From: an uncultured Gammaproteobacteria bacterium
GTDB taxonomy: Bacteria; Pseudomonadota; Gammaproteobacteria; Arenicellales; JAANXG01
Assembly: GCA_945787105.1 (NCBI GenBank)
Contig: CALZGZ010000044.1
Location: forward strand, 1-35,180
Direction of reading: 5' to 3'
DNA length: 35,180 bases
The notes under the pieces were generated by a model. The model had not been told where the DNA came from. It saw only the letters and a program-made list of their open reading frames with translations, and ran no database searches. Made by a program: the position numbers and the translations under genes. This document shows positions 3,109-21,116 of this stretch, piece after piece (positions within the stretch are counted from its first letter, which is position 1; the number at the start of each line of letters is the position of its first letter).

Positions 3109-3804
3109 TCACTTTGACGACGTCTTGTGCCCCCCGAGTCGCGCATAGTACCGCGCTAGGCCACGCAGTTCCTCGTCTGTCAGCCGGCCGGTCAGATCGC
3201 ACATACTATTATAGACATCACGGGCACGGTCTCGCTGCGCAAACAGTTGCATCGTCGCCAGGAAATATTCGAACTTCTGGCCGCCGATGGCCGGCGTATC
3301 GATGGGCGCCCCCTCGCCACGCACACCATGACACCCCGCGCAGGCGGTAAGACCCCGTGTCTGGTCACCGCGCTCCACCAATTTTGAAATCCCCTCCGAT
3401 ACTGGAGCCTGAGACAAGTCCGGCTCAGCAGGCTCCAAGGATGCATACCATGCAGCGACGTCCGCCATGTCCTGATCACTTAGCCGGCGCACTCGACGTC
3501 TCATCGGGTTGTGATTGCGCGGCCCCTTCGCCTTGTAGTGCTGCAACTGCTTATAGGTATAGGCGCGCACCTGTCCGGCGAGATTCGGTACCCCGGGCTC
3601 AACCCCGATACCGTTTTCGCCGTGACAATGGCTACAGCGTTCTGCGATCTGTTTGCCCCGCGCCACGTCACCGCTATCTACCAGCTTTTGTTCCACCACG
3701 GTCCACATCACACTCGGACGCGGCGGCATCTTGGTGGACTGGGCACAGACGCCGCCAACCCAGAACAGCACCATGGAACCGATTACCACGCGCGAAATCT
3801 TCAT
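3109..3804 (-). CDS. Dihaem class I cytochrome c (cytochrome c4-like)
   Basis: A periplasmic dihaem electron carrier of 231 residues. Residues 1-21 form a Sec signal peptide ending in GGVCAQS. Two class I cytochrome c domains follow: CSHCH at residues 57-61 with Met101 as likely sixth ligand, and CAGCH at 155-159 with Met201. Each domain has the usual NLAGQ or AIGGQ segment and a C-terminal helix (DMADVAAWYASL, ELRGLARYYARL). Size and domain order match the cytochrome c4 family, which shuttles electrons to terminal oxidases or other periplasmic acceptors. The ATG at 3804 has a strong AGGGAGGA ribosome site. A sigma70-like promoter lies about 60 bases upstream, so it can be transcribed apart from the upstream cytochrome operon. 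The redox partner is unknown. Confidence 0.93.
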   Translation of the reverse strand: MKISRVVIGSMVLFWVGGVCAQSTKMPPRPSVMWTVVEQKLVDSGDVARGKQIAERCSHCHGENGIGVEPGVPNLAGQVRAYTYKQLQHYKAKGPRNHNPMRRRVRRLSDQDMADVAAWYASLEPAEPDLSQAPVSEGISKLVERGDQTRGLTACAGCHGVRGEGAPIDTPAIGGQKFEYFLATMQLFAQRDRARDVYNSMCDLTGRLTDEELRGLARYYARLGGHKTSSK

Positions 3805-3868
3805 AGTTATCCTCCCTTGGTAACAGCGAGATATCTGATCTTTCCGGAAGTACTTGGGATAGTAAATG

Positions 3869-3897
3869 ACTATATTAGAGTATGTGAAATATCACAA
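3869..3897 (-). promoter_or_regulatory. Sigma70-like promoter with palindromic operator for the dihaem cytochrome
   Basis: Read on the minus strand, TTGTGA (3897-3892) and TATAGT (3874-3869) are separated by 17 bases, a good -35/-10 pair about 60 bases upstream of the start codon. The perfect palindrome TGTGA-N4-TCACA occupies 3883-3896 and overlaps the -35 box and spacer. Crp/Fnr-family proteins bind TGTGA-type half-sites, although Crp itself uses a six-base gap. The position over the core promoter suggests repression. Regulator identity is inference. Confidence 0.5.
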
Positions 3898-4002
3898 CAT
3901 CGGGCGTCACAATATCATCCAGCCTGAGTCCGTTCGCAATATTCGCGCCCTTACATCGCCACGACCATTTTTCGAATCGTTATCACTTGTTCGCGGGCCC
4001 GC

Positions 4003-4647
4003 TTATCGCCGGGATTCACGCGCTGCCGGCACCACGGACGAGCCGGCGGTGACACATCGCGGATCCGGCGTACCCTTCACTGCTCGCTGCCGCTGCGCCG
4101 ATTGCCACTCCCCGAGCGCAGCGCGTGCCTTATCGGCGAAGCGATCTTTGGATTTCGACAAGTGCAGGTAGGTACGCATGGAACCGATCGCAGCACCCGC
4201 ATCGCAGAGACTTTCCAATGCGACCGCGAGTCCATAGTAAGCGTTCACCTGTTGCGGGTTAAGCTCGATGGCGGAACGGAAAAAATCCCGCGCCGCCGCA
4301 TATCGTTGCTGCCCCAATAATGCAAACCCCATGTTGGCATGGGCCTCGGGCATCTTTGGCACCAACTGGAGCAGCCGGTGCAGCGCCGCGACCGCATAGT
4401 CGTATTGCCTGGCGTGCAGCATGAATTTGGCTTGTTCAAACCGCTCGGCAATTTCTGGTTCACGCATGACATGCACATGGGCGGTCTCGGTCGATTGAGA
4501 CGGCTCACTGCGTGCTTGCTTCGGCGATGGCGTTGATGCCAGCCATAAGCCCTGACCGGAGGTTAACGCGAGCACCAACCCCAATAACATCACCGCCGCG
4601 CCGGTAACCCACAGCGCTGTGTATCTGAGATCGGCACTGCGTCTCAT
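4003..4647 (-). CDS. Membrane-anchored TPR-repeat protein
   Basis: A 214-residue protein with one N-terminal membrane segment (about residues 11-30) and a periplasmic domain holding at least two tetratricopeptide repeats (about 65-155; QYDYAVAALHRLLQLVPKMP and the repeat after it, which ends in AIELNPQQ). Its ATG lies within the stop codon of ccsA (ATGA, 4644-4647), so the two are translationally coupled. That coupling suggests a role in cytochrome c maturation, perhaps holding apocytochromes for ResB/CcsA as the TPR domain of CcmH/CycH does in System I. This role is inferred from context only. The frame stays open far upstream, but the extension is the ccsA region read in another frame and was not used. 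The C-terminus is basic and low in complexity. Confidence 0.8.
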   Translation of the reverse strand: MRRSADLRYTALWVTGAAVMLLGLVLALTSGQGLWLASTPSPKQARSEPSQSTETAHVHVMREPEIAERFEQAKFMLHARQYDYAVAALHRLLQLVPKMPEAHANMGFALLGQQRYAAARDFFRSAIELNPQQVNAYYGLAVALESLCDAGAAIGSMRTYLHLSKSKDRFADKARAALGEWQSAQRQRAVKGTPDPRCVTAGSSVVPAARESRR

Positions 4648-5468
4648 AAAATCCCCTGGTGTGGCGCCAGGCTCAGGAATGGCACGCCAAAAAAGGTCAA
4701 AAATGCAACCAAAAACACCCCGATAATCATCCACCAACCGGTCCATAGCGGAAGTGGGTAGGTAACACGTAAATGCAGCGAGACCCCAAGCGTCAACCAG
4801 GTGATGAAGGCCCATGTCTCGAGGGGGTCCCAGGCCCAATATCTGCCCCACGCATCCTGCGCCCACACCGCCCCCGCGATCAGCATCAAGCTGTGGAACA
4901 CGAACGCCAACGCCATGAATCGCCATGCCAGGGCATCCAGAGTCTCGTCGCCGGGTAATGCCGTGAACACGTTGCGCACGGCCCCGCTTTTACGCAGCAA
5001 TAACACACCAGCGATGCCCACCGCGACGAGACACAATCCTAGAAACACCTTGCCCACGCCCACGTGTACCCACAGCCAGACGTTATCGTAAGTAGCCGGC
5101 AGCCGGCTGGGTTCGGCAGAAACGATGAGCAACCAAAGCCCTAAAAGCAACAGAATCGGCAACGCGACGACAGAACCGGGACGCACCCAGGTGATGCGCC
5201 AATACGCAATGGTGTAAATCAAACCCAGACTGAACAGATTACTCAGCAGGATTTCGAACATGGTTAGAAAGGGTCCGTATCCGATACGCATCCAGCGCTC
5301 GGCGATGCTGAACGCGAACAGCGCAACACCGGTAACCAACGAGACCAAGATCAAACGGTCGTGAGACCGACGCGTAAAGGCGCCATGCCAGGCAGCCGCG
5401 GTGCTCGCGGCATACCCGGCCAGCCCGCCCCATAGCCACACCGATTCAGACACCAACGGCGGAACCAT
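4644..5468 (-). CDS. ccsA: System II cytochrome c haem-ligation protein CcsA (ResC)
   Basis: An integral membrane protein of 274 residues that pairs with ResB to export haem and attach it to CXXCH motifs in the periplasm. The tryptophan-rich haem-handling motif WGRYWAWDP is at residues 207-215. Conserved-type histidines sit at 135, 192 and 232, and about eight hydrophobic segments are visible. It fits the short CcsA/ResC form. The chosen ATG at 5468 overlaps the end of resB by 23 bases; the open frame continues upstream, but that part is resB read in another frame. It overlaps the TPR gene by ATGA. Its place inside a multihaem cytochrome operon suggests that it serves these cytochromes. Confidence 0.93.
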   Translation of the reverse strand: MVPPLVSESVWLWGGLAGYAASTAAAWHGAFTRRSHDRLILVSLVTGVALFAFSIAERWMRIGYGPFLTMFEILLSNLFSLGLIYTIAYWRITWVRPGSVVALPILLLLGLWLLIVSAEPSRLPATYDNVWLWVHVGVGKVFLGLCLVAVGIAGVLLLRKSGAVRNVFTALPGDETLDALAWRFMALAFVFHSLMLIAGAVWAQDAWGRYWAWDPLETWAFITWLTLGVSLHLRVTYPLPLWTGWWMIIGVFLVAFLTFFGVPFLSLAPHQGIL

Positions 5469-6489
5469 CCGTAACTCGTCGCTTACTCCGCTCAGTCGCA
5501 ACACCAGGCAGCGGTTGCGACCAGATCTTGGTCCAGAAGTGCCACACCAGTCCCAACACCGCGATGAAGGCCGCCGCGAACAACCAGGATAAGGTAGCAT
5601 CGTAAAAGACTTCGTAACCCATCCACATGCGCAGGCCCTGATAGCGTAAGCGGCCACCGGGCACTCGAATCTCGTCACCCGCTGTGAGCACCTGTACTCG
5701 CCCGCTTTGCAGTGCCACCTTGACCGCACCTGCCGCATCACGGCTGTCCAGTGTCCACGACCGGTCCAGCGGCACCTGCTGCGGAAGCTGAAGTTCGACC
5801 TCGATTTCGCTACCACCCGGTGTCGTCCAACGGCGAATTTGCTTCCAGTCGCGCAGCGGATACGAGGAAAGATGAATCGCCGCGGTACTGGCTTGACCAT
5901 GGTCACCGAGCCAGTTGAACAGCACCGCATAACCCTTGTTGGAGGTCGTGTAGAAGCGGTAACCCGCGGCCTCGAACGGTACATTGTCACCAAAACTGAC
6001 CATGCCCCGCTGCTCATGCGTGGCCACCTGACTTCGAGTGCGGCCGCGCTGTAATCCCGGCGCATACGCGACGGACAGCGGGCCCTGGCGAAAGTAAACC
6101 GCGGCCAGCCGGTCGTGTGGATGCCATGGACCCTCACGGACGGTCTGCACCATGTCCGGCGTAAACATCTGACCCTGGGTGATCTCCAAACGCCCCTTGA
6201 ACTGAGTCATCTGGCCTACGGCGGCCACTACGATCACCGCCACCAGACCATAATGAAATACGAGCAGTCCAGCCTGACGGCGGAACCGGGGATTCGTGAT
6301 CAGCGCGCTCACCAGGTTCAGGAAAAGCATCACCAGTGGCGCAACCACATAACCCACCGGGGCATTGGTCATCTTGTAGCTTGCCAACACACCTATTGCG
6401 AGCGCGAACATGCCGACCAGAGTTAGTTTCAACGAAGCGAGGCGGCGCAGCATCATCACGGCGGATTCGAACATACCTGGGCCATCCAC
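5446..6489 (-). CDS. resB: System II cytochrome c biogenesis protein ResB (CcsB)
   Basis: The partner of CcsA in haem export and covalent attachment to apocytochromes. The 347 residues hold three membrane segments near the N-terminus (about 18-37, 45-64 and 72-92), a large periplasmic domain, and a fourth membrane segment near 304-322, which is the ResB arrangement. The segment LASLKLTLVGMFALAIGVLA is typical of the ResB N-terminus. The start is a GTG at 6489 inside the end of the 11-haem cytochrome gene, with GGGGAAGG just upstream; an in-frame ATG at 6474 is an alternative. Overlap with both neighbours indicates one polycistronic message. The sequence is shorter than fused ResB-CcsA proteins, and the two functions are separate genes here. 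Confidence 0.92.
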   Translation of the reverse strand: MDGPGMFESAVMMLRRLASLKLTLVGMFALAIGVLASYKMTNAPVGYVVAPLVMLFLNLVSALITNPRFRRQAGLLVFHYGLVAVIVVAAVGQMTQFKGRLEITQGQMFTPDMVQTVREGPWHPHDRLAAVYFRQGPLSVAYAPGLQRGRTRSQVATHEQRGMVSFGDNVPFEAAGYRFYTTSNKGYAVLFNWLGDHGQASTAAIHLSSYPLRDWKQIRRWTTPGGSEIEVELQLPQQVPLDRSWTLDSRDAAGAVKVALQSGRVQVLTAGDEIRVPGGRLRYQGLRMWMGYEVFYDATLSWLFAAAFIAVLGLVWHFWTKIWSQPLPGVATERSKRRVTDGSAVGV

Positions 6490-8819
6490 ACCTTCCCCGG
6501 CTCTTCGTCGCTCGATCCCGGCCCCACGATCATGCTACTCGATCCACAGTCGTTCACATCCCACTCCCCGCTGCGGGGAAAGCTGGTGATCTTGTTTACA
6601 GCGTTCAAGTAGTAGGGTTCTTGAGTGTAGTACTCGGGCATCTCGGTATCCGGAGCGAGACCGGCCTCGGGACCGACGTCATTGAGATTAACCAGCAGCG
6701 CCTTGTTCTTGAAGCCGTGGGGTACGGCAGCGTGGCACCACGAGCAACGGATGGCGCCGATCTTATCGACGTGCAAACCATGCCAGTTGCTATTGCCGTC
6801 ACCGAAACCACTGGAGCGGTTTTGGCCTTGTGCCGTGGCGTAGGTGGTGTAGTCGTGGCACTTGAAACACAACCCGCTGGGATCCCCGGTGCCCTGTTGT
6901 GCGTCCCACGACCCCTTGAGTAAAAACGCATTGCTGGAGCCGTGCGGCCCCCACGGGTTGCTACCGGACGGTTGCACAGTGCCGGCCTCGGTGTTGTTAC
7001 CGTGGCAATCGGAGCAATACATCGTTTGATTGCCCACATCGTTGCCCCACGGTGACACGAACGCCTGTGCATCCGTATTCCGGTCCGCCAGCGTCCGTCC
7101 GGTGCCGTCGATCACCGGATGCCAGGAGCGATGATTGCCGCCGGGCTCGCCAGTGTCCCCGCCTGGGGCCTGAAACTCCATCGCCTGGTTGGTGTACTGG
7201 GTGAGGCCGTTGGTGCCCGCAGGGGTGCTGCCCCCAAAACGTCCTAGATTGGGCCGGCTACCGGTCGGAAAGCCGTTGTCGTCGTCGAAACCGTAATCCG
7301 AATGACACTTGAGGCAAATCTGATACTCCCGCGTCACATATGCGCTGTCTACGGACACACTGGCACCGTTACCGCCATCGCCTTTTTTCACCAGATACGA
7401 ACTGGGTAGACTGAGGAACGATGTGCTGCCATACACCGGCTCTATACCCCACGCGCCGCGCAGCGCGCCGGAGGCGATGTTTGTGCCCAGCGTGTGTGCA
7501 GAACGGATCCCGGGTCCAGTGCCGTTAAACCGCTCGTTGCGCATCGACCGGTGGGAATGGTGGCAGTCACTGCATTCGGCATGCCGGTTGTCGGGGTCGC
7601 CCTTGCCTAAGGTCTCCTGATCCTCGACGAGATCGTTATCGGTGATGTCATGGGCCTCGCTACTCGAATCGTCGTCATCACTGATGGGCATGTGGATGGC
7701 CAGTGCGAAATCGCTCTCGATGTCTTTGACCTCACCGCTTGGGTTGTTTATGATCGGTGTCGCCGAGTGGCATTGATAACACGTCTCCTCAACCGCCGAA
7801 TTACCGCCGGTCTTCGGCGAATTGGTCGCGTCATCGGTCCCTTCTCTTAGCAACCATCGGGCGCCGCTCACGGTGTGGCTGTCGTGGCAATTCACGCATC
7901 CCGCTTGCCACACGGCAATGCCGGCGGGGAAATCTCTAAGTTCACTATCAGAACTGAGGTATGTCTCATCGGCGACAGTGGGATCGGCATGCGCGGAGGT
8001 TGACCATCCTCCCTTGTCGTGGCAGGCCAGGCAGCCGATGTCGTTGGTTTGATCGAAAACTCCGATCGATGGTGCCGCTTCTTGAAACCGGTTCAAGCGC
8101 AAAAACTTGATATTCTTAGTCTGATCCGAGTCGCGGATGTGCGGATCATGACAAGTCGCGCATTGTATCTGCGGCTCGCCACCGGTGCCGGTAAGCTCTA
8201 AAGGAACGGCAGGCCGCACGCCCGGCTGGCGCACTCCAATGTGGGTCTCTACCTCGGGGTTCAGGAGTTCGCTATCGGCCACTGCCAGGTTGTAGTCATA
8301 GGTTACCGAGATGGGATGGTCATTGCGCAGATCGAGCCCCAAATCCCGCGTGAATCCGGTGTCGACACCCTCTCCGGCGGGCATCCTCCCGTCACCCGCC
8401 GCACCGCTCAATTGGATGGTCACGTTTTGCCGCCCGCCGGTCACGTTGACAGTGCCAAGCGCGATGGTACCGTCATGACAGGATAGACAGAGTTTGGAAC
8501 TCCCCCCCGGCTGGTCGAGTTGCGTTTGAATAGTGAGTGCATCCAGGGACGACGAGGTATAGACCTCATATGTGGCTCCAGACAGCTCACGATTCCAAAG
8601 CGGGGTGGGGGCACCAGTCGCCAGGGTCGCGGCATGAGGCGTATGGCAGAACACGCAGATCTTGGTTTCATTAATCGCCCGCACCGGACCCGGGCCATCC
8701 ACGGATAGGTTGTGCTTTGTTCTGGCGATGTCGGAAATGATCTCGCCCATCGCTGGTACGGCCAAACTCACCAACACGGCGGTGCAGATCGAAATAATGA
8801 CGCGACGTGGTGTGATCAT
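6456..8819 (-). CDS. Undecahaem (11-haem) c-type cytochrome, exported
   Basis: A 787-residue multihaem cytochrome with a Sec signal peptide (about residues 1-25) and eleven CXXCH motifs: CVFCH, CLSCH, CATCH, CLACH, CVNCH, CYQCH, CSDCH, CLKCH, CSDCH, CFKCH and CSWCH. It has well over eleven further histidines, so full bis-His ligation is possible. The first quarter repeats the motif order of the tetrahaem cytochrome at 16761-17579: KHNLS, CVFCHTPH, PLWNR, CLSCHDGT, NDHPIS, CATCHDPH. No lipobox or membrane anchor is seen. Size and context fit the outer-membrane or surface cytochrome of a porin-cytochrome conduit, with the beta-barrel at 13484-15484 as partner. An acidic stretch (SDDDDSSSE) lies mid-protein. 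It overlaps the upstream NHL gene by ATGA and resB by 34 bases. Its location at the outer membrane is inference. Confidence 0.93.
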   Translation of the reverse strand: MITPRRVIISICTAVLVSLAVPAMGEIISDIARTKHNLSVDGPGPVRAINETKICVFCHTPHAATLATGAPTPLWNRELSGATYEVYTSSSLDALTIQTQLDQPGGSSKLCLSCHDGTIALGTVNVTGGRQNVTIQLSGAAGDGRMPAGEGVDTGFTRDLGLDLRNDHPISVTYDYNLAVADSELLNPEVETHIGVRQPGVRPAVPLELTGTGGEPQIQCATCHDPHIRDSDQTKNIKFLRLNRFQEAAPSIGVFDQTNDIGCLACHDKGGWSTSAHADPTVADETYLSSDSELRDFPAGIAVWQAGCVNCHDSHTVSGARWLLREGTDDATNSPKTGGNSAVEETCYQCHSATPIINNPSGEVKDIESDFALAIHMPISDDDDSSSEAHDITDNDLVEDQETLGKGDPDNRHAECSDCHHSHRSMRNERFNGTGPGIRSAHTLGTNIASGALRGAWGIEPVYGSTSFLSLPSSYLVKKGDGGNGASVSVDSAYVTREYQICLKCHSDYGFDDDNGFPTGSRPNLGRFGGSTPAGTNGLTQYTNQAMEFQAPGGDTGEPGGNHRSWHPVIDGTGRTLADRNTDAQAFVSPWGNDVGNQTMYCSDCHGNNTEAGTVQPSGSNPWGPHGSSNAFLLKGSWDAQQGTGDPSGLCFKCHDYTTYATAQGQNRSSGFGDGNSNWHGLHVDKIGAIRCSWCHAAVPHGFKNKALLVNLNDVGPEAGLAPDTEMPEYYTQEPYYLNAVNKITSFPRSGEWDVNDCGSSSMIVGPGSSDEEPGKVWMAQVCSNPP

Positions 8820-9889
8820 GTTCCCAAATATCTGAAGATTACCACTCTGCCGTTGAACATATCAGCGACGAATACACGACCGAGCTTGTCTGTCCAAGCA
8901 CCCGCCGGCAGGAAAAACCGCCCCACGGCGGTGCCGGTTCCGCCAATCGGTAGTAGGAAACGCCCATCTTCGTCAAATACTAACAGATGATCGTAATAGC
9001 CTTCCACGACGTAGATATTCCGATCATGATCAACGGCAATGCCCTTGGGTCGGGTCAGATTGCCCACGAACAAGCCGCGTGCTCCGAGGCTGTTGACCGG
9101 CTCACCGCCAGCCGTCAGCACCTGCACGCGGGCATTCAAGGTATCGCTCACATATAAATAGCCGTCCCTGTATGCCAGGTGCGTCGGTGCGTTGAACTCT
9201 CCCAGTTCCTTGCCACGCCGGCCGATCGTTTGCATCAATTTGCCCCGATCGTTGAACACCTTGATGTCATGCTGGGCGGTATCGGCAACAAAAATACGAC
9301 CCGATTGGGGGTCGCGGGCCAACCCCGTTGGCCGGCCGACGATACCCTGGGCAAAACTACCTCGCGGTACACCGGAGCGGTCCAAACGGACGATACGCCG
9401 CAAGCCGGAATCCGCCACCAGGACCTCGCCATCCCGTCCCACAACGATACCGATTGGAGACACAAACGATGTGTATTCCCCGGCCTGATCCCAAATGAAA
9501 AGCTTGCCCTGCGGCTCGTCGAATACGAACACCGCCTTACGGCCGACGTCGGTCACATAGATCCGGCCGCGGTCATCCATTGCGCCTGCCTGTGGCCTTA
9601 CCAGCTCCCGAGGGTCCTCCTGCGACCCGGCGCCCAGCCCCACCAACCAACGAACAACGCGCTCACCGGTGCCGGGCCGAGATTGTTCGGCTAAACCGAA
9701 ATTACGCTCACCGGCGAGTTCACCCGCAAACTGGTACCGCGGGATATCCGGTGGTGGCGGCCATACCAGAGCTCGCGCTGGCTCGCTGCCGCTGGGGAAC
9801 AAAGTCATCACCGTCGGTGCCGAGGCACATCCGACGAGCACGGATACGGCAACGGCGAGGGTTAGAAATTCCTTAGCCGTTACTCGCAT
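8816..9889 (-). CDS. NHL-repeat (beta-propeller) lipoprotein
   Basis: A 357-residue protein with a lipoprotein signal peptide; the lipobox LVGC places the lipidated Cys at residue 21. It is followed by about six NHL-type blades with recurring IYVTD, VLVAD, IFVAD, LYVSD, IYVVE and VFVAD strands. The C-terminal blade (RVFVADMFNGRVVIFRYLG) closes the propeller. NHL propellers bind proteins or ligands and are often encoded beside multihaem cytochromes, so a scaffold or assembly role at a membrane is likely but unproven. It overlaps the upstream NHL gene by ten bases and the 11-haem gene by four (ATGA). No ribosome site is obvious, so translation probably depends on coupling. It is related in plan to the lipoprotein at 18813-19898. 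Confidence 0.9.
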   Translation of the reverse strand: MRVTAKEFLTLAVAVSVLVGCASAPTVMTLFPSGSEPARALVWPPPPDIPRYQFAGELAGERNFGLAEQSRPGTGERVVRWLVGLGAGSQEDPRELVRPQAGAMDDRGRIYVTDVGRKAVFVFDEPQGKLFIWDQAGEYTSFVSPIGIVVGRDGEVLVADSGLRRIVRLDRSGVPRGSFAQGIVGRPTGLARDPQSGRIFVADTAQHDIKVFNDRGKLMQTIGRRGKELGEFNAPTHLAYRDGYLYVSDTLNARVQVLTAGGEPVNSLGARGLFVGNLTRPKGIAVDHDRNIYVVEGYYDHLLVFDEDGRFLLPIGGTGTAVGRFFLPAGAWTDKLGRVFVADMFNGRVVIFRYLGT

Positions 9890-10860
9890 GGTGGGAGCAC
9901 GTTAAAGATACTCACGCGGGCGTTTGCGCCATCCGCCACATAGAGAAAACCATCGCTATACCATAGATCCAGCACGTTTTGAAACCAAGATCGTGCATCG
10001 CCATCACCGGCTATGACGGTGTCCAGTTCAGTGTCACGAAACACCTTAATCGTATTGTCGAAACGGTCAACCACGAACACCCGCCGATAGTCATCCACCG
10101 CGATGGCTTCAGGCTGCTCTAAGTTATCCTCGCCGAACACTGCATGAAAACGCTGATCTGGTCCAAACGCATACACCAGTTGACCCAGCTGATCCACAAT
10201 GAACGTCTGGCCTCGGCCGCGCGCCATGGCTACGATATCTCGAAACGGTATCGGTTGCATCACACGCGCGCCCAAGCTCCCGGTTACGCTACCGAGTCGA
10301 TTGAATGCTAAAACGATTGCCCTTAGCCCATCGGCGACGAGTATGCTTGCATCGTCGGGACCTACTACCACGGCTACCGGCTGCGGCAGGTTCTGAGTAT
10401 TCCGATAGCGCTGCATCAGATTTCCCTGCCGGTCGTATTGCCGAACTTCGCGACCATGCGAGTCAGCCACGTACACGGACAGATCGGTATCCACATACAA
10501 GTCCACTTCAGCGTTGCTCGCAGGCAACCGCGCAAAACTATGAAGCACGTTTCGTGTCTGGTCGAACCGGAAAATTGTGCCGTGTCCCGCATCGAATATG
10601 AACAGTTCATTGGCATGAGCGGCGATCGCCTTCGGATACAAGAAATAAACGTGTCGTGGCATGCTTTGACCGTTCATCCGTGAGCCAGAACCAAGATTTG
10701 TCTGCACCAGCCCATGACTCACATGGCGCCACAGCGCTAAAGGATTCTCTGCGCCCTTAGCGCATGAACTTTTTGTGTCGGCAAGAGCCGCGGTGAATAA
10801 AAACAGCGCTGTGCATACAGAAATCACTATCGCCAAAGGCGTGTCGGTGTTGCGCTTCAT
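9880..10860 (-). CDS. Exported NHL/beta-propeller protein
   Basis: The second propeller protein of the locus, about 326 residues. From the ATG at 10860 it opens with a clean Sec signal peptide (MKRNTDTPLAIVIS, then a hydrophobic core and TAALADT). No lipobox Cys follows, so it is probably soluble in the periplasm or secreted. Blade-like strands recur: LFIFDAGHGTIFRFD, VYVADSHGREVRQYD, ILVADGLRAIVLAFN, VFVVDRFDNTIKVFRD and LYVADGANARVSIF. A GTG at 10893, directly after the upstream stop codon, would add 11 residues before the signal peptide and is less likely. It overlaps the next NHL gene by ten bases. The role is unknown; it may bind or guide cytochromes during export. The blade sequences are more divergent than in the two lipoproteins. 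Confidence 0.85.
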   Translation of the reverse strand: MKRNTDTPLAIVISVCTALFLFTAALADTKSSCAKGAENPLALWRHVSHGLVQTNLGSGSRMNGQSMPRHVYFLYPKAIAAHANELFIFDAGHGTIFRFDQTRNVLHSFARLPASNAEVDLYVDTDLSVYVADSHGREVRQYDRQGNLMQRYRNTQNLPQPVAVVVGPDDASILVADGLRAIVLAFNRLGSVTGSLGARVMQPIPFRDIVAMARGRGQTFIVDQLGQLVYAFGPDQRFHAVFGEDNLEQPEAIAVDDYRRVFVVDRFDNTIKVFRDTELDTVIAGDGDARSWFQNVLDLWYSDGFLYVADGANARVSIFNVLPPCE

Positions 10861-10893
10861 GATGAAGCTCGCACACTGAAACGGGGTGCTCAC

Positions 10894-11286: not shown

Positions 11287-11297
11287 CGTTGATTTAC

Positions 11298-13014: not shown

Positions 13015-13029
13015 AGTGATCACCTCCCG

Positions 13030-13437
13030 TTACTTCGGGGCGCCAGCGGGCCTGATTAATTTCTGCAACGTACTTTCGTGGACCTGAGTCGGTGTCTTGG
13101 GTTTACCGGAATGGCACAGATCGCAGTTCTCCACCGACCAGGCGATATCTCCATTGTGGCACGCGCCGCAGTATTCTCCATCGATGATCTTCAACATATT
13201 TATGTCGTTGCCACCGGCTTTGAACTTGAATCCCAGATCCGCATGACATACTTTGCAACGGAAGCGGACGCGGTGGAACCAATGCGGAAACACAACCGGG
13301 CGGATTCCAGAATCATCTGAATATTTGTTCATTACTACGTCGCCATACTCTGCATGGCTTGCATTATGCGTCAATAAAACCAGACACACTATTGTCAAGA
13401 CCAGGACCGTTATGCGTTTACACAGTGTTAGCGCCAT
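13030..13437 (-). CDS. Trihaem cytochrome c7-type protein, form A
   Basis: A 135-residue periplasmic trihaem protein. The ATG at 13437 follows an AGGAGAAG ribosome site; the upstream extension of the open frame overlaps the beta-barrel gene and was not used. The signal peptide (MALTLCKRITVLVLT, cut near ASHAEYG) precedes HWFHRVRFRCKVCH, CGACH and CDLCH. Most residues of the haem domain match the form A protein at 10894-11286, so the two are likely duplicates. It lies directly downstream of the beta-barrel gene and upstream of a form B partner, so the A-B order here is reversed in the second pair (B-A). It is likely a soluble electron shuttle to the outer-membrane complex. Confidence 0.94.
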   Translation of the reverse strand: MALTLCKRITVLVLTIVCLVLLTHNASHAEYGDVVMNKYSDDSGIRPVVFPHWFHRVRFRCKVCHADLGFKFKAGGNDINMLKIIDGEYCGACHNGDIAWSVENCDLCHSGKPKTPTQVHESTLQKLIRPAGAPK

Positions 13438-13483
13438 GGATGTCTTCTCCTTTTCGGTTGTTCCCCGGGTCGAGAGGTGCATA

Positions 13484-15484
13484 TCAAAAATTTCCAAAAT
13501 ACCGCCGCATGTTAAACAAGATGAGCGAGTCGTCTCCTCGTTTGTATTCCGATGCGCGTGCTAGTACCGTAAAATACAGCCTTCCAATCCAGTACTCGAC
13601 CCTATTTTCCCATACTAGCGTCTCCCGTTCGTTTAATTCTTGAGTTTCGTCAAGAAATGGGAAATATGAGTCACTCAACGCCCGCAACTCCGATCGGAAC
13701 GTCAAGCGCGGTACGTCAAATAGTTGCCGATTATTATAGGCGATATTCACCGAAGCGGTAGGGTTCAAGTCATCGTCACCAGCCAAGCGTCCGATTTCGC
13801 TCCGTGTCACCTGGATCGTTGCGTTACCGATGAGACTCGACACCCGCGTGAGATTCTGGTTTACCGAAGCCTGAAAATTGACGAGCTGAAATTCCCGTTG
13901 TTCATCGCCTTGCCGGCCGCCACCGCCATAGGTTCGTGAGTCATTGGCCGACAAGCGGATCGATGCGGTTGTCGCCTTTTTAGTTTTCCGCCAATCGACG
14001 CTGGCGTTATGGAGCAGTGCCTGGACCGACCTGCCGTCTGTGTCTTCGATCACATTCCCGCTCTGACGGGCGGTAATCCTGAACACTGCATTGTTACCCA
14101 ATGGCATGCTGCGGGACAAGGTCTGGCCGGCCGCAAACCCTGCAGAAAAGAGTGAACCCACGTCATCGGACAGCGCGCTCGCCTCGGGTCCGGCGAACCA
14201 GCCATAGTCAAAACCGTGCCACGGAATAGTTACCGAAGTGTAGGTCGCCGTACCGCCCAAAAAAGCCGAATCCTTGCCAACGCCAGTGGCATGTAACAGC
14301 GACCCGTTGCCCGCCAGTCGCCAATTCCGACTCCAATCGTAGGTGGCGCCGATACTCCCGAAATAACTCTGCTGATCGGTGCTGCTCGCTCCGGATCCAG
14401 AGCTGGAGTCCACCAACCGCACGGTACCATTGATCAAACTCGCCCGCTGTGTCTGAGGACGCCAAAAAGTATAACTCGTAACCTCCAGTCTAGTCGTCGT
14501 GGTTTTGAAGTCTCGATCCAGCAACCGTTGGATCTGCGTCTCGCTGTCGTTGTAGGTCAGTCGGTTGTTGACGGTCAATCTTGTCCCATCCCGGTAACGA
14601 TGGTTGACCGTCGCAAACAACCGCTCAAAATCATTACCGGTATCCTTGCGGTCGATCTGCTGCCAAGTAGTGCTCGCCCTAATGTTATGCCCGTCTAACG
14701 AATAATCGTAGCCGAGCTCCAACAAGTCGGCGACATCCCGGTCCACCTGCAGGTCGGAATCGGTCTTGCGCATCGCATCGAATGTCTGGTCGGTGTGTTC
14801 ATACCTGCCCCGGAACCGGTGTCCGATCTCTGTTCGGTACATCTGCACGATGCCATAACGCGTGAGTTCCCTATCCAGACCCGTTAGATCTGTATCCGTG
14901 GTGCTGTCGAGCTGTTGAAAATACAGTTCAGACGGAAAACGGCTGCGGGGGAAAAGACGTAATCTGACTTCGCCGTCGACTAAGTCTCCGGAGGAATCAA
15001 TTTCTCGCTCGTCAGTGTCTCTCACCTGCAGCCCGATGCGTCCCTCAACTTGAGCGATCCATGGTTCGGAGATAAAGGTTGCCGCACGTACGTTGACACG
15101 TCCGACGTGTTCGCGTTTGTCAGAGTCCTCATGGCGATAGGTATACCCGAGATCTCCCCACACCCGCACCGGCCAAATCGCCGCTTTGATGGGTCTGACT
15201 TGTAGTAGCACGACAAACAGCGCCACTACGCACACCTTGATCAGCCGCTGTCTACGTTGCCGGGTGGTATGGCCGGGGAAGACGAGACATTCCTTATCGG
15301 AGTAGGTGGGCGGCTCGCGTCCAGGCGCATTGGATACACAGTCACCGGCGCGAAATGGCGTGGTTGACACTAGCCAACATATCGCAGGCGAATCAGACCG
15401 TCTGGACACCGGCATGGTGATCGACTCGTCACCGCGGCGTAAATCTGATGACGATTGATATTCCGGCTCGTTAACTATGATCAT
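13484..15484 (-). CDS. Outer-membrane beta-barrel protein, candidate porin of a cytochrome conduit
   Basis: A 666-residue protein. A basic, hydrophobic export segment lies at about residues 75-103 (RQRRQRLIKVCVVALFVVLL, then IKAA). It is followed by about 560 residues of alternating polar/hydrophobic strands typical of a large barrel (WGDLGYTYRH, VRLRLFP, LTVNNRLTY, FRSELRALSD) and ends in the aromatic residue Phe, as barrel proteins do. Length suggests more than 20 strands. Placed among multihaem cytochromes, it fits the porin part of a porin-cytochrome complex, but it does not obviously match MtrB/PioB. The ATG at 15484 has an AGG ribosome site, yet it puts about 75 residues ahead of the export segment; no ATG lies closer to that segment than residue 24. 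The barrel is well supported; the partner is inferred. Confidence 0.85.
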   Translation of the reverse strand: MIIVNEPEYQSSSDLRRGDESITMPVSRRSDSPAICWLVSTTPFRAGDCVSNAPGREPPTYSDKECLVFPGHTTRQRRQRLIKVCVVALFVVLLQVRPIKAAIWPVRVWGDLGYTYRHEDSDKREHVGRVNVRAATFISEPWIAQVEGRIGLQVRDTDEREIDSSGDLVDGEVRLRLFPRSRFPSELYFQQLDSTTDTDLTGLDRELTRYGIVQMYRTEIGHRFRGRYEHTDQTFDAMRKTDSDLQVDRDVADLLELGYDYSLDGHNIRASTTWQQIDRKDTGNDFERLFATVNHRYRDGTRLTVNNRLTYNDSETQIQRLLDRDFKTTTTRLEVTSYTFWRPQTQRASLINGTVRLVDSSSGSGASSTDQQSYFGSIGATYDWSRNWRLAGNGSLLHATGVGKDSAFLGGTATYTSVTIPWHGFDYGWFAGPEASALSDDVGSLFSAGFAAGQTLSRSMPLGNNAVFRITARQSGNVIEDTDGRSVQALLHNASVDWRKTKKATTASIRLSANDSRTYGGGGRQGDEQREFQLVNFQASVNQNLTRVSSLIGNATIQVTRSEIGRLAGDDDLNPTASVNIAYNNRQLFDVPRLTFRSELRALSDSYFPFLDETQELNERETLVWENRVEYWIGRLYFTVLARASEYKRGDDSLILFNMRRYFGNF

Positions 15485-15638: not shown

Positions 15639-16661
15639 TTATCCAGCGAGTGACGGATCCAGCAGTTTGATTAACGTGGTGCTACGAAGTTTCTCTTGAA
15701 GCGCTTGCCATCTGCCATCGCTTTGTTCTCGTAACCATAGTTGGTTCGCCCGTTTTTGTACATCTTCGAAACGCTGCTGGGTTGCCGGAAGACGCTCATC
15801 GAGACGGAATAGCGCAACCCCCTCCAGGATACGCAGCGGCGCGGTGAAGTCACCAGGAGATAGTTTCTCGATCACTTGCTCAACGCCCGGATTGAGCATG
15901 CCTCGGTGCAAATATCCCATGTCGCCGCCGTTTTTCGCCGACGCATGCGCGGAATGCTCGCGGGCAAGTCCGGCAAAGTCAGCACCGCCCTTGAGGCGCA
16001 ATACCAGTTGCTGGGCCTGTTGGGTGGCCGCCTCCCACGCCGCCGGTGGTGCGGACGGCGTAGTCTTGATGAGTATGATCGACACCCGTACGCGCTCGGG
16101 TTCCGTGAACTTGTCGCGATTGTTCTCATAGTACGCACGCAGTTCTGCGCCGCTCGGCGCCTCGACCCTGCGGACGTTTTGCTCCAGTTGGCGTAACTGG
16201 TCGTTCTCTTGTAGATACGTCGTGAGTGTCGCCAATGCCTGGGCGCCTTGCTGCGCCCAGCCCGGGGTGTTTCCGTAGCGTTTCTCAATTGCGTCGCGCC
16301 GCGCCTGCACTTTCGCGGCGTCCGGCTCGATGCCGCGCCGCCGGGCCTCTTGCAGCAACAGCACCCGATTGACGAGCTGCTGCGCGACTTGACGCCGGAA
16401 CGCCTGTTCCTTCCCCTGGGGCGGTTTGCCGTGATAGAACGTCTGGCGGATGGTGCGCCGCACTGCCGCAGTCAACTCGGCCTGAGTAATATCGGTGTCA
16501 CCCACACGGGCAATGATTTCATCGGGCTCGACGGCGCCGGATGTCTGTTGCGCATGCAGCGGATGCAAGGACAGCAACACTATTCCCGCCAGCACGCCCA
16601 CCCACACATGCCACGACGAGGTAACGCGTAGCTGCAAGGTCTTCGTGCACCGCCGGTTCAT
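15639..16661 (-). CDS. PpiC-type (parvulin) periplasmic peptidyl-prolyl isomerase, SurA-like
   Basis: A folding catalyst of about 340 residues. The signal segment (about 20-38, ending LHPLHAQQ) precedes a SurA-like helical N-domain (VNRVLLLQEARRRGIEP) and a parvulin domain (about 190-300) with the motifs REHSAH, NGGDMGYLHRGML and LSPGDFTAPL. Such isomerases sit beside outer-membrane multihaem cytochromes in other electron-transfer loci, where they are thought to aid cytochrome or barrel folding. The ATG at 16661 lies 16 bases past the U-tract of a strong terminator, and I see no normal ribosome site. A TTG three codons upstream is an alternative start. It is followed by the beta-barrel gene. 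It may serve the barrel, the tetrahaem protein or both. Confidence 0.92.
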   Translation of the reverse strand: MNRRCTKTLQLRVTSSWHVWVGVLAGIVLLSLHPLHAQQTSGAVEPDEIIARVGDTDITQAELTAAVRRTIRQTFYHGKPPQGKEQAFRRQVAQQLVNRVLLLQEARRRGIEPDAAKVQARRDAIEKRYGNTPGWAQQGAQALATLTTYLQENDQLRQLEQNVRRVEAPSGAELRAYYENNRDKFTEPERVRVSIILIKTTPSAPPAAWEAATQQAQQLVLRLKGGADFAGLAREHSAHASAKNGGDMGYLHRGMLNPGVEQVIEKLSPGDFTAPLRILEGVALFRLDERLPATQQRFEDVQKRANQLWLREQSDGRWQALQEKLRSTTLIKLLDPSLAG

Positions 16662-16676
16662 CGGAGTCAAAGTTCC

Positions 16677-16713
16677 AAAAAAAACCCGGGCAAGGCGACT
16701 GTCCTTACCCGGG
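16677..16713 (-). terminator. Strong intrinsic terminator between tetrahaem and PPIase genes
   Basis: On the minus strand an 11-pair stem with one mismatch (arms 16713-16703 and 16695-16685, core CCCGGG) and a seven-base loop is followed directly by eight T residues (16684-16677). It lies 47 bases after the tetrahaem stop and ends just before the PPIase start. It should end most tetrahaem transcripts and let a fraction read through into the operon. Confidence 0.88.
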
Positions 16714-16760
16714 CCTGCTTATTGTTTTCGGTTTACGTTCTGGTCAGCGCGCACACTGAA

Positions 16761-17579
16761 TTACTTGATATGACACGACACACAGACTTCGCTACCGGCG
16801 TTGGAAATCCGCAGGAACTGTACCGAACCCGGACCACCGGTGGTCTGGCCGTCGTGCGGATCGTGGCAACTCCCGCACTCCACGGTGGGCTCGATCACGC
16901 TGGAACCGGCGACGTCAGCGCGCGCGTACAAGGGCAGGTCGGTCTTCTCACGCACCCCTGCCACGCCGACGGATGTATCGATCCACCACACCGGATTGCC
17001 GTTGATGGTGGTTTTTTCCGGGAAGTTAAAGTCCGGGTCCCCGAGCGGCCCCACGCAGGTACCGTCCGCATCGCTGTCATCGCAACCGCCGCCAGCGTAC
17101 TGGATACTGATCGGATGGTCGTTGGTCAAATCCGTGCCCAGATTACGCACCGGTGGGGAGCCCATCGGGCCGATGGCTCCGACGTCAATCTGGGTACCCG
17201 CCGCATTGTAACCGTAGCTTCCCGGTAGATTGATGACCACATCCATGGCTTGCGTGCCGTCATGGCAGGACAGGCACGCGATAGACACGGAACCTACTGG
17301 CGCCTCCGCACCATCCAGTGTCGGCAGCAGCAGCGACGAATACCTTGTGTATGCGCCCGGTGCATTCAGGACCTTGTTCCACAACGGCACCGCAGCGAAC
17401 GAGGTATCCCCGCCGTGAGGCGTGTGGCAGAACACGCACACGGCAGTGGTATTAGCCGTGAATGGCGAAAGATCGTGAAAGCTGCCCACCACCGTCGCCG
17501 AAGCGTTGTTAAAGGCAAATATCGCGAAGATGGCGGTCCCAACCGCGCCGATTGATTTCTTAACCATTGCTCTCATCAT
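16761..17579 (-). CDS. Tetrahaem c-type cytochrome, candidate OmcE-like nanowire subunit
   Basis: A 272-residue exported cytochrome. The Sec signal peptide (MVKKSIGAVGTAIFAIFAF, cut near ASATVVG) precedes four haem motifs: CVFCH, CLSCH, CGSCH and CVSCH. The mature chain holds exactly four other histidines, in GSFHDLS, CHTPH, NDHPIS and CHDPH, enough to give bis-His ligation to all four haems with none left over. The motif order, from HDLS through CVFCHTPHG, PLWN, CLSCHDGT, GTDLTNDHPIS and CGSCHDPH to the closing FLRISNAGSEVCVSCHIK, matches what I recall of the OmcE-type cytochromes that form extracellular filaments in Geobacter. Two further cysteines (GGGCDDSDADGTC) may form a disulfide. The start has AGAGGA five bases upstream. 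The terminator behind it would favour high expression relative to downstream genes. Filament formation is inference. Confidence 0.9.
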   Translation of the reverse strand: MMRAMVKKSIGAVGTAIFAIFAFNNASATVVGSFHDLSPFTANTTAVCVFCHTPHGGDTSFAAVPLWNKVLNAPGAYTRYSSLLLPTLDGAEAPVGSVSIACLSCHDGTQAMDVVINLPGSYGYNAAGTQIDVGAIGPMGSPPVRNLGTDLTNDHPISIQYAGGGCDDSDADGTCVGPLGDPDFNFPEKTTINGNPVWWIDTSVGVAGVREKTDLPLYARADVAGSSVIEPTVECGSCHDPHDGQTTGGPGSVQFLRISNAGSEVCVSCHIK

Positions 17580-17665
17580 TACGTCCTCTTAAGTTGACAC
17601 CCCAAGTTACCCATATCTGCGACCCGACCCACTAGTTACTGTGGCGGTCTTGGAACAAAATTCGC

Positions 17666-17682: not shown

Positions 17683-17709
17683 TCCGACCACCAATTGGCT
17701 AGGAAAAAA

Positions 17710-17723
17710 TTGATCAAGGTCAA
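17710..17723. promoter_or_regulatory. Anr/FNR-type binding site
   Basis: TTGATCAAGGTCAA matches TTGAT-N4-ATCAA in nine of ten defined bases and fits the degenerate TTGAY-N4-RTCAA Anr/FNR consensus fully. It lies about 130 bases upstream of the tetrahaem start on the same side as its promoter. It suggests induction when oxygen is low. The binding protein could be a chromosomal FNR/Anr or the regulator encoded just upstream. Confidence 0.6.
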
Positions 17724-17975
17724 AAAAACCCGTTTGCGTGGGTCTGATCAAGTAAGCTTCGCGCTCGATGAACCCCCGCAGATCCCGAGGTCGCACTAGC
17801 CTTTCTTGTTAATATAGTCGTCTCGGCACGGTCTCGCCACCCTTGCACGACCAGACTTGACCCACGTCATGTCTGCACCACTGGATCCGATTTCTGTTTA
17901 ATTTATAAGCGCTTGCACGCGCCCGAGCCCGTCAGCGGGCGCCGCGTTAACAATATTTAACCGCGACGCACAACC

Positions 17976-18716
17976 TCAACGGCGCCGCAATGCCAGGTGC
18001 GTCAAACCGGTGTGGTCGGCGATCACGATGCTTCGCCGGCCCAGCTTGACCCAACCAGAGCGCTCAAATTCCTTCAGTTGCCTACTCACTACCTCGCGCG
18101 CGGTACCAAGCTCGGTGGCCAACTCACGGTGGGAGGCCTCGATCGGTTCGTCTTGATCGCAATGGGTCAATAGCCATTGCGCCAACCGCGTGTCGACGTG
18201 ACCAAAGGCAACCTCTTCGAGAAGCACGATCAATTCGCTGACACGTTCGGCATACCGTTGGTTCACAAACTGCCGAAATCCTTGGGAGTGATCCAACGCG
18301 TGGTGAAAGTATTTCGCAGGCAGCAATACAAGATGGGAATCCCGTTCGGCAACGGCCTCTGCTGGGTAGCGCTGCCCGCTCAACAGCATGGCCGCGGTCA
18401 CCGGACAGGTCTGACCCTCACTCACCCGGTATAACACGATTTCACGGCCCTTGCGCGAGACCCGATAGATGCGCAGGCAGCCCTCCAGCATCATGAGGTA
18501 GTGTGTACACTCGTCGCCCTGACGAAATACCAATGATTGCGCCGGCAACCGCATGGTCTTCGCGGCCATGCTCACCTCTTGCCATGCTGCATCGCGAATT
18601 CGCTCCAGGGCAGGAAATGCCCGAAGCCAAAACGGCACCACGGTATCCGCGGTGTTTCGCCACACCTGGTTGGCCACTACTCGACTACCCCCACAACTAC
18701 AAAGACTTGTTATCAC
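17976..18716 (-). CDS. Crp/Fnr-family transcriptional regulator
   Basis: A 246-residue DNA-binding regulator. A cyclic-nucleotide-binding-like beta-roll domain (about 35-155; LVFRQGDECTHYLMMLEGCL, GREIVLYRVSEGQTCPV) precedes a dimer helix and a winged helix-turn-helix (about 195-240; HRELATELGTAREVVSRQLKEFE). The N-terminus has only CSC and lacks the spaced cysteines of oxygen-sensing FNR, so a classical 4Fe-4S cluster is unlikely; single cysteines in the beta-roll (DEC, EGC, QTC) could respond to redox or NO. The Crp cAMP-binding Arg-Ser pattern is not seen. The start is a GTG with TAGGTG overlapping it; an internal GTG near residue 14 is possible. It lies directly between two parts of the cytochrome locus and is the obvious candidate regulator. 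Confidence 0.9.
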   Translation of the reverse strand: MITSLCSCGGSRVVANQVWRNTADTVVPFWLRAFPALERIRDAAWQEVSMAAKTMRLPAQSLVFRQGDECTHYLMMLEGCLRIYRVSRKGREIVLYRVSEGQTCPVTAAMLLSGQRYPAEAVAERDSHLVLLPAKYFHHALDHSQGFRQFVNQRYAERVSELIVLLEEVAFGHVDTRLAQWLLTHCDQDEPIEASHRELATELGTAREVVSRQLKEFERSGWVKLGRRSIVIADHTGLTHLALRRR

Positions 18717-18812
18717 CTAGTACTTATAAAGTTAGTCTAGGAATCGGACTTTGTCACATTGAAATTGGGGTTTTGTGAGCGTTTTGACTATCGATTTTTG
18801 ACCTGGGTCAGA

Positions 18813-19898
18813 TCACTTTGATGCGTTCCAGACCCCCAGATATCCCTCGTTCTCGGCCAGGTGGGCGGGACGATACACATCGATCTTGCGGAAATACTGA
18901 TCCACCATATACACGCGGCCATCCTCGTCCACATGTAGACCGGCCGGCAACATGTAGTTGGCGCGGCCAAATGTCGCTGATCGGCCGCCGATGAATAACA
19001 ATAACTGACCTTGGGGGTCAAAGATTTGAAAGTTCCCGTAGGATGCGTCGCTGACGTAGACATTGCCGTCCGGGTCGATGGCAATTCCCTTGGGACGGGC
19101 GAATTGTCCGAGTTGCAGGCCGAGAGCACCAAAACTTCTGACAAACGTGCCGTCTGGGCGTAACACCTGCACACGAAAGTTTGCCGAGTCAACCACATAC
19201 AAAAGCCCGTCGGGGCCAAATTGCACGTCGCGCGGCATATTAAACTCTCCATTTCCCGTGCCGCGCTTTCCGATATCGTAAAGGTGATCTCCGGATACCG
19301 CATCGAACACCCTGATGCGATGGTTTGGACTTCTCGAACCACCCGTGTCTACAGCAAAGATACGTTGTTGCTTTTCGTCAACGGCCACATTAGACAGACG
19401 GTCGAACCAATCCAGTCCTCCGATGGCCTTTATAAACTTGCCGTCTTGGTCGTAGATGTTGACACGCTTTGCGGTAAAGTCCGCCACATACAAATTGCAC
19501 TGGGAGTCTGTGGTCAGTCCAAGTGGCTTGACCAGCACACCGGGTTCGGTAACACCGATCGGAAAGTTTCGTTGCCCGGGGACATCGTAAACCTGGACGA
19601 CGCGATTAACCGAGTCGCTGACGAATATACGGCCTTTGCAGACGCTCACATCATGCGGTTTCTCGATGCCGATACCCCGTTCGCGCTCACCGGTCAGCAG
19701 TCGCCGCCAACGCTTCTTCGCGTCGCCTTGAATCAGGTCCGCACTGCCGGTGATGATACGCTCGAATACAAATCGAGGCTGCTCCGGTGGCGGAGGAAAA
19801 AACAGAGGTTGCAGCGGCTGGGGCTCGGGCGTCGTGGCGCAGCCGCCGATGACGATCGCCACGAATAGCCAGGTATTCTTATTAGGCAAGATGTTCAC
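18813..19898 (-). CDS. NHL-repeat lipoprotein
   Basis: A 361-residue lipoprotein; the lipobox IGGC puts the lipidated Cys at residue 20. A proline-rich segment (PLFFPPPPEQPRF) resembles the same region of the lipoprotein at 8816-9889 (VWPPPPDIPRYQF), so the two are homologous. About six NHL blades follow: IFVSDSVNRVVQVYD, LYVADFTAKRVNIYD, IFAVDTGG, LYVVDSANFRVQVLR, VYVSDASYGNFQIFD and VYMVDQYFRKIDVYR. The start is a GTG at 19898 with a weak GAAG upstream; no better start gives the signal peptide. It is the first gene of the minus-strand locus and faces the divergent plus-strand cytochrome operon. It is probably a membrane-attached scaffold or assembly protein for the cytochromes, by context. 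Confidence 0.9.
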   Translation of the reverse strand: MNILPNKNTWLFVAIVIGGCATTPEPQPLQPLFFPPPPEQPRFVFERIITGSADLIQGDAKKRWRRLLTGERERGIGIEKPHDVSVCKGRIFVSDSVNRVVQVYDVPGQRNFPIGVTEPGVLVKPLGLTTDSQCNLYVADFTAKRVNIYDQDGKFIKAIGGLDWFDRLSNVAVDEKQQRIFAVDTGGSRSPNHRIRVFDAVSGDHLYDIGKRGTGNGEFNMPRDVQFGPDGLLYVVDSANFRVQVLRPDGTFVRSFGALGLQLGQFARPKGIAIDPDGNVYVSDASYGNFQIFDPQGQLLLFIGGRSATFGRANYMLPAGLHVDEDGRVYMVDQYFRKIDVYRPAHLAENEGYLGVWNASK

Positions 19899-21112: not shown

Positions 21113-21116
21113 CAAT

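Follow-up and report, generated by a model that had tools for sequence, protein, structure and literature searches.

What kind of electron transfer system is encoded on the minus strand of the 35,180-nt window analyzed here? The window is the whole of contig CALZGZ010000044.1 (C44) in the assembly GCA_945787105.1 (4.8 Mb, 388 contigs, 97% complete) of an uncultured gammaproteobacterium of the Arenicellales, and it carries, from position 19898 down to position 3109, a complete copy of the uetA-J cluster of the Uet (undecaheme electron transfer) pathway, together with the System II genes that usually lie 3' of it. The best reading of this locus, and in our judgment the probable one, is a nanowire plus a conduit, in which a filament of the tetraheme cytochrome UetA would be joined to a path across the outer membrane formed by the undecaheme cytochrome UetJ and the β-barrel UetC. 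New here are the kinship of UetA with the filament cytochrome OmcE, an OmcE-like head on UetJ, an MtrB-like 28-strand model of UetC, and a hairpin 3' of uetA.

The uetA gene (16761..17579; minus strand, as are all genes of the locus) encodes a protein with four CXXCH motifs. We compared a profile of 30 UetA rows, comprising 29 open reading frames and that of the window, all chosen for exactly four CXXCH motifs, with 177,635 sequences of solved structures. It matched OmcE of Geobacter sulfurreducens (7tfs, E = 9.4e-38) and the entry 9yuq (2.6e-36), which has 16 chains and is named putative multiheme cytochrome c, and the next best match had an E-value of 0.55. The window UetA by itself matches OmcE at 2.2e-20. 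Homology extends over both ends of the protein, in two matched stretches that take in all four CXXCH motifs. The four CXXCH histidines and four further histidines are invariant in all 30 rows; this invariant set accounts for all eight histidines of the window UetA, and in pairwise alignments the four extra ones align with OmcE histidines, that is, with the same four distal positions. In contrast to OmcE, UetA is longer between the second and third heme motifs. Judged by these alignments UetA is a member of the OmcE family, and the first gene of the cluster therefore probably encodes the building block of a Geobacter-type protein wire. Homologs of OmcS, OmcE, and OmcZ are known across bacteria and archaea, according to the accessible part of a review; we found no link between UetA and OmcE in print in the literature available to search.

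The second protein that leads back to OmcE is UetJ (6456..8819; 787 residues, 11 CXXCH motifs). Its N-terminal domain resembles OmcE but, unlike OmcE, is fused to seven more heme motifs. In a set of 58 UetJ sequences (57 of the 77 open reading frames with 11 CXXCH motifs, plus the window), the 11 CXXCH histidines and 15 other histidines are present at a fraction of 1.0, and together they are enough for bis-histidine ligation of all UetJ hemes. The UetJ profile matches OmcE at 1.3e-24 over positions 12-227, the UetA profile matches the head of all 58 UetJ proteins, and in BLASTP the window UetA and UetJ share 30% identity through all four heme motifs. The AlphaFold2 model of UetJ has a mean predicted local distance difference test (pLDDT) score of 73 and a predicted template-modeling (pTM) score of 0.77; its residues 11-244 superpose on OmcE 7tfs with a Z score of 8.9 over 180 of 202 residues and a root-mean-square deviation (rmsd) of 4.2 (VIA-align). 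Profile and model thus suggest that UetJ begins with an OmcE-like domain. For the seven-heme remainder (residues 252-787, window 6459-8066) there is no sequence relative in the PDB at E-values up to 1. The undecaheme cytochrome 6qvm was considered as a relative of UetJ and set aside, being a weak fold match only (Z 3.7).

Could UetC house such a cytochrome? The 666-codon uetC reading frame (13484..15484; mature part about 13487-15181) was modeled with AlphaFold2 from 47 sequences, namely 46 of 48 long barrel reading frames and that of the window, and the model is an outer-membrane β-barrel of 28 long strands (mean pLDDT 91.3, pTM 0.75). The top VIA-align match is MtrB (6r2q_B; Z 19.5, rmsd 5.8 over 310 residues, which all fall in residues 1-316 of the model), followed by three with Z scores of 17.4-17.9 and rmsd values of 9.6-13.9; Foldseek places MtrB third, between TonB-dependent receptors. 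Since big barrels resemble one another, the MtrB match supports the size and kind of UetC and not its descent. A formula estimate for 28 strands gives a backbone radius of about 25-28 Å, and from this we take UetC to be wide enough for a multiheme protein. MtrCAB and MtoAB likewise combine a large barrel with several multiheme cytochromes in one operon. However, UetC has 28 strands, whereas the MtrB barrel has 26; no MtrB/PioB-type Pfam family is found in any of the 47 UetC members; the window UetC falls in no Pfam or NCBIfam family; and its best PDB sequence match has an E-value of only 0.16. Similarly, the decaheme family of MtrA and DmsE (TIGR03508) is above cut-off in none of the 13 genomes of the host family, the host included, while matches below the cut-off occur in all 13 (the best, in G030, reaching 104.8 of the 192.2 bits required, and that of the host 43.7). 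Membership in the Mtr/Mto systems was rejected on these two grounds, the lack of an MtrB-type family and of a decaheme cytochrome above cut-off.

The uetA gene is also set apart by its 3' end. Between uetA and uetB stands a hairpin (16682..16716, minus strand; a 14-pair stem, a 7-nt loop, and a T run) that resembles an intrinsic terminator and is the longest of its kind in the region; of the 17 genes of the window whose 3' ends were tested, uetA is the sole one followed by such a hairpin. With one rule for all genes, a hairpin is found within 150 nt 3' of uetA in 22 of 39 loci, the 39 being UetA-like reading frames with two to four CXXCH motifs that lie more than 6 kb before uetJ, some of them cut at the edge of their stretch. 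Under the same rule hairpins follow uetB in 3 of 46 cases, uetC in 0 of 50, the triheme genes in 8 of 219, the gene at the F position in 2 of 84, the NHL genes in 2 of 78, uetJ in 3 of 78, resB in 2 of 64, and ccsA in 2 of 60 (0-7% in all eight classes), and they appear in 9 of 780 dinucleotide shuffles. The sequence of the hairpin varies among loci. A general terminator scan of the region gave 22 sites against 16.7 (standard deviation 3.8) in shuffles, so that nothing in it is conspicuous apart from the long hairpin 3' of uetA. We propose that the hairpin is a partial terminator or attenuator that raises the output of UetA over that of the rest of the operon; a partial terminator in this place would be expected if UetA, the product of the first gene, is a filament subunit, because such a subunit is needed in large excess. 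A full terminator combined with a separate uetB promoter would also fit.

We identify the locus as Uet because its components and their order match the published description, and because that order is conserved in most of 80 related loci. In the accessible passages of a paper on Gallionellaceae, Uet of the cathode-oxidizing Tenderiales is a porin-multiheme complex with undecaheme UetJ, extracellular tetraheme UetA, periplasmic triheme UetDEG, the peptidylprolyl isomerase UetB, the NHL proteins UetHI, and the barrel UetC (PMC10734462). Excerpts of other papers name the conserved cluster uetABCDEFGHIJ (PMC12575090) and report UetJ in the Sphaerotilus-Leptothrix group (PMC13386937). For Tenderia, the available text lists triheme genes Tel_16515, 16520, and 16530, which are among those with the highest expression at the cathode, a TPR protein, Tel_16525, and the undecaheme Tel_16545 (PMC5371394). 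The Uet loci of Candidatus Tenderia electrophaga and other Tenderiales, of Gallionella, and of the Sphaerotilus-Leptothrix group share with the window the series tetraheme, isomerase, barrel, two triheme, F, triheme, two NHL, and undecaheme, where the comparison with Tenderia runs through gene letters and locus tags, no Tenderia record being named among the 80 loci kept.

In the window, uetA is followed by uetB (15639..16670), a SurA/PpiC-type peptidyl-prolyl isomerase (Pfam Rotamase 2.3e-16, SurA_N_3 1e-12), and then by uetC. Between the barrel and the undecaheme gene lie c7-type triheme cytochromes at the positions of UetD (13030..13497; Pfam Cytochrome_C7 5.3e-15, TIGR04257 nanowire_3heme 2.6e-18), UetE (12379..13023; 7.7e-11 and 1e-18), and UetG (11298..11858; 1.8e-11 and 6e-18), with a small protein of no Pfam family at the conserved UetF position (11819..12238). 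They are joined by a fourth triheme cytochrome with an uncertain start codon (10894..11469; TIGR04257 2.3e-20) and by the NHL-type propellers UetH (9880..10893; Pfam NHL 6.2e-8) and UetI (8816..9889; 4.2e-24), the latter with an N-terminus that looks lipoprotein-like by eye. The equation of Tel_16525 with UetF is drawn from the order of the tags, and the reading frame at the UetF place gives no Pfam TPR match. Relative to Tenderia, the window has one triheme protein more than the named D, E, and G; relative to Uet as described, it also has an NHL β-propeller gene (18813..19898; Pfam NHL 1.9e-25) and a Crp/Fnr-type regulator gene (17976..18716; HTH_Crp_2 4.8e-16, cNMP_binding 5.1e-16) upstream of uetA, and genes for ResB, CcsA, and a TPR protein 3' of uetJ. 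The available Uet passages do not mention these last genes, and the word "resb" does not occur in the accessible text of PMC10734462 and PMC5371394. The series ends with a dihaem c4-like cytochrome (3109..3804; Pfam Cytochrom_C 2.7e-20). The minus strand thus carries 4 + 4 × 3 + 11 + 2 = 29 CXXCH motifs, and a divergent plus-strand operon (20342..22167) encoding a c7-type triheme cytochrome, a Sel1-repeat protein, and a monoheme cytochrome c, assigned by Pfam and CXXCH motifs, contributes 3 + 1 for 33 overall.

An earlier note on this DNA, made without database searches, had described the genes, their order, and the 29 and 33 heme motifs just as we find them, and the large barrel that it called is now supported by AlphaFold2. 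Its gene list was right as given but omitted the TPR gene at 4003-4926. The note took the arrangement to be undescribed and the combination to be known mainly from Geobacter-type organisms; in fact both correspond to uetABCDEFGHIJ, already published from the gammaproteobacterial Tenderiales. Nor can the locus be called self-contained, as no inner-membrane quinol-oxidizing cytochrome was recognized among the genes scanned. Extracellular electron transfer, the function that the note assigned, is still the reading that fits best, and it accords with the function published for Uet.

How widely is this gene set shared? A three-row UetJ profile run against a genome collection matched 433 stretches, of which 358 were confirmed and the best 80, that is the nearer relatives, were kept. 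The same order recurs, whole or in part, in most of these 80 loci, which come from Gamma-, Beta-, and Alphaproteobacteria and Magnetococcales with a few isolates among them and of which many end at contig ends; this recurrence places the locus far from chance, and the joint neighborhood on which the earlier note had made its reading depend is strongly conserved elsewhere. Ramlibacter albus GTP1 (L068) and Rubrivivax sp. A210 (L061) are isolates that carry the full set, and the available stretch of Sphaerotilus mobilis (L077) stops short of uetA. The iterated models merged the triheme proteins, the NHL proteins, and UetA with UetJ into shared families, and filters on heme number were added. The kept UetJ homologs have 11 CXXCH motifs in 76 cases and 10 in four. 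In the 47 loci with at least 9 kb upstream we find the barrel in 41, PpiC in 39, triheme proteins in 43, NHL proteins in 43, F in 41, and UetA in 35, and four triheme-family reading frames, as in the window, in 28; some of the absences are due to stretches that stop too soon. By a loose model the UetF family is present in 53 of the 80 loci. The NHL gene upstream of uetA also occurs in a minority of relatives; in L025 the uet genes are followed by a triheme-Sel1-monoheme set, and in L052, L053, L066, L068, L070, and L072 by a Sel1 and a monoheme gene. Three neighbors were dropped as candidate core parts, the families of Crp/Fnr, dihaem c4, and hemN being found by loose models in 6, 38, and 1 of the 80 loci, respectively, and a c4 match standing within 5 kb 3' of uetJ in only 6 of 58.

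Genomes drawn evenly from the class tell the same story: the barrel is present in 40 of 369, the host included. A uetJ match is found in all 40 of these and in none of 20 barrel-negative genomes, which were the first listed and not a random draw; it is partial or in pieces in G160, G185, G298, and G471, and begins at position 84 in G201. In 33 of the 40, barrel and uetJ share a contig and strand at a distance of 4.4-6.7 kb; six genomes have them on different contigs, and in G311 they are far apart on one contig (this tally used 45 of 55 uetJ rows and 36 of 37 ResB rows; the ten uetJ rows omitted are weaker pieces, none of them from a contig with a barrel). Within the host order uetJ is matched at 1e-20 in 7 of 109 genomes and is whole in four, counting G032, where it is split over two frames; the three relatives of the host with a whole uetJ are G028, G032, and G034. 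The relatives' loci and the 40 genomes rule out an arrangement unique to the host genome. A plasmid-borne uet was likewise rejected, since a search of 72,556 plasmid records gave no uetJ match at 1e-20; of RNA elements or tRNAs that might mark a genomic island, none were found.

Several variants stand beside these loci. Halomonas sp. DQ26W (L056) has UetJ, ResB, and CcsA with no barrel detected nearby and no triheme gene, and Noviherbaspirillum denitrificans (L090) has the same three with no barrel detected nearby and an upstream reading frame with 24 heme motifs; we regard both as reduced or rewired versions of uet in isolates. Tandem undecaheme genes occur in L080 (9944-15079), and G172 and G407 also have two per contig, a few kb apart. 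Finally, a shorter protein with 11 CXXCH motifs (reading frames of 579-623 codons) and an OmcE-like head is encoded beside an NHL gene in G033, G029, G030, and G028 (L007 1438-3309, L008 1456-3246, L009 1438-3231, and L011 691-2430), with a UetC-like barrel end also present in L008 and L009. These loci constitute a paralogous system.

The genes 3' of uetJ encode ResB (5446..6489; Pfam ResB 4.5e-10), the CcsA/CcsB heme-handling protein (about 4644..5519, with an approximate start; Cytochrom_C_asm 3.5e-22), and the TPR protein (TPR_11 1.3e-10). The reading frame starts of ResB and CcsA are mechanical, and the listed CcsA frame extends back through resB. Both proteins of this System II pair exceed their Pfam cut-offs; CcsA matches TIGR03144 at 7.1e-31, below the curated cut-off, and the window ResB has no NCBIfam match. 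The earlier note had counted this built-in pair as part of an arrangement that it did not recognize, but adjoining the 11-heme gene is the rule: in the 58 loci with 3.5 kb downstream, ResB lies directly 3' of uetJ (match start -100 to +600 nt from the uetJ end) in 49, ResB and CcsA together in 44, and a TPR match, from a promiscuous model, within 4.5 kb in 47. A ResB relative is present in 36 of the 40 barrel genomes, starting within 300 nt of uetJ in 29 and lying further off or on another contig in the other seven. The host also possesses System I, with CcmF and CcmC above their NCBIfam cut-offs, and the ResB/CcsA pair is therefore a locus-tied addition and not the sole route of heme ligation. 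Thus, the System II genes accompany the locus even in a genome that, like that of the host, already encodes System I. A second cluster of the host (L099, G000:C167:1-12376, 886-9077) encodes an NHL protein, a 961-residue cytochrome with 12 CXXCH motifs, ResB, and CcsA, and a B12-binding radical SAM gene comes next; the cluster is another multiheme locus with its own System II.

What we observed is the content and order of the genes, their conservation, their family relationships, and their predicted folds; polymerization and electron direction we infer from these. We propose that UetA would be exported across the outer membrane and polymerize into an OmcE-type cytochrome filament, with UetB keeping exported proteins foldable and the partial terminator 3' of uetA yielding more subunit than machinery. 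UetC would be the outer-membrane pore, with UetJ at or in it: the seven-heme part of UetJ would serve as the conduit, and its OmcE-like domain would form the first rung, contacting the UetA filament and passing electrons to or from it. The four c7-type triheme proteins would carry electrons over the periplasm, linking the inner-membrane chain to UetJ; the NHL proteins may aid assembly or docking; and ResB and CcsA would load heme onto the multiheme proteins of the locus beside the System I of the cell. The sequence does not fix the direction of flow, and these parts could also work in reverse. We mildly favor electron uptake, given the RuBisCO of the host and the use of a cathode by Candidatus Tenderia, the carrier that has been studied best; the RuBisCO genes are, weakly, compatible with uptake for autotrophy as proposed for Tenderia.

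What else could the locus be? A conventional porin-cytochrome conduit, in which UetJ and UetC cross the outer membrane and UetA is a monomeric surface cytochrome that forms no filament, is the most serious rival, though we consider it rather unlikely. The fold of UetC does resemble MtrB, the partial published account describes UetA as an extracellular tetraheme protein and the set as a porin-multiheme complex, and kinship with OmcE is no proof of polymerization. Yet UetA retains the OmcE heme motifs and ligand set, the uetA transcript region bears the signature of subunit excess, and the host has no MtrA/MtoA-type decaheme above cut-off. We give distinctly less credence to the idea that UetC, UetB, and the NHL proteins form a secretion and assembly machine for UetA, with no conduit and with UetJ as a filament cap or anchor. 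A precedent by description is the Geobacter osc (omcS companion) operon, which joins a cytochrome filament gene to genes whose products are proposed, in work cited by PMC13194489, to act in the folding, secretion, and morphology of OmcS; the frequent presence of barrel and UetA in the loci with 9 kb upstream (41 and 35 of 47) and the OmcE-like domain of UetJ would suit such a machine. Against it, 11 hemes with invariant ligands exceed what an anchor needs, and the operon includes four triheme carriers of periplasmic type. As for an ordinary cluster for periplasmic redox reactions or cytochrome maturation, lacking any partner outside the cell, c7-type triheme proteins, System II, and peptidyl-prolyl isomerases do occur in such settings, but the same operon holds a high-confidence 28-strand barrel model whose gene is accompanied by an 11-heme gene in 40 of 40 genomes, and we regard this explanation as very improbable.

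The nanowire plus conduit, for its part, has to be held against several observations. In OmcE filaments the next subunit supplies a histidine ligand to one heme (PMC12954529 and PMC12307469, as far as their available text describes), and whether UetA uses such inter-subunit ligation is beyond the reach of sequence; the placement of UetA or UetJ outside the cell rests on the literature. The UetJ superposition with VIA-align covered five chains only, the mean pLDDT of that model is modest and stretches below 50 fall inside its N-terminal domain, and Foldseek listed no match for it. Likewise, no hairpin was found after uetA in 17 of the 39 loci, these loci are related and are not independent cases, and the strict hairpin rule was set after a first look (a looser stem rule, used without a control, gave 23 of 39). 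UetA was not detected in 12 of the 47 loci with 9 kb upstream, in some because the stretch ends there, and L075 and L093 have a uetJ with 10 kb upstream and none of the other uet genes. Finally, 10 of the 13 genomes of the host family have RuBisCO, that of the host among them: all four with a whole uetJ but also six of the nine without, so it says little about direction.

Two neighbors of the locus deserve mention. A TRAP transporter (DctM, DctQ, and DctP; 22322-25445) adjoins the divergent operon, and just 3' of the locus lies HemN, the oxygen-independent coproporphyrinogen III oxidase (1347-2750; TIGR00538 6e-185), which is a plausible source of heme for the locus.

Uet has been named as a candidate pathway of electroautotrophy and of iron oxidation, and the parts of the literature consulted do not work out its mechanism. 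Four features together make such a mechanism testable in cultured bacteria: the link to OmcE, the head fused to UetJ, the terminator after uetA, and the conserved pair of System II genes. We tentatively extend the proposal to the family, at somewhat less than even confidence: Uet loci as a whole may be nanowire loci, in which case about one in ten of the sampled genomes of the class would have a UetA wire docked or grown on UetJ within UetC, with an excess of subunit set by a terminator and with its own System II. If this is true, Uet would offer a testable wire, socket, and pore in one operon, and wires made of cytochromes may turn out to be common among Gamma- and Betaproteobacteria and Magnetococcales, with the cultured Ramlibacter albus and Rubrivivax sp. 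A210 among the carriers.

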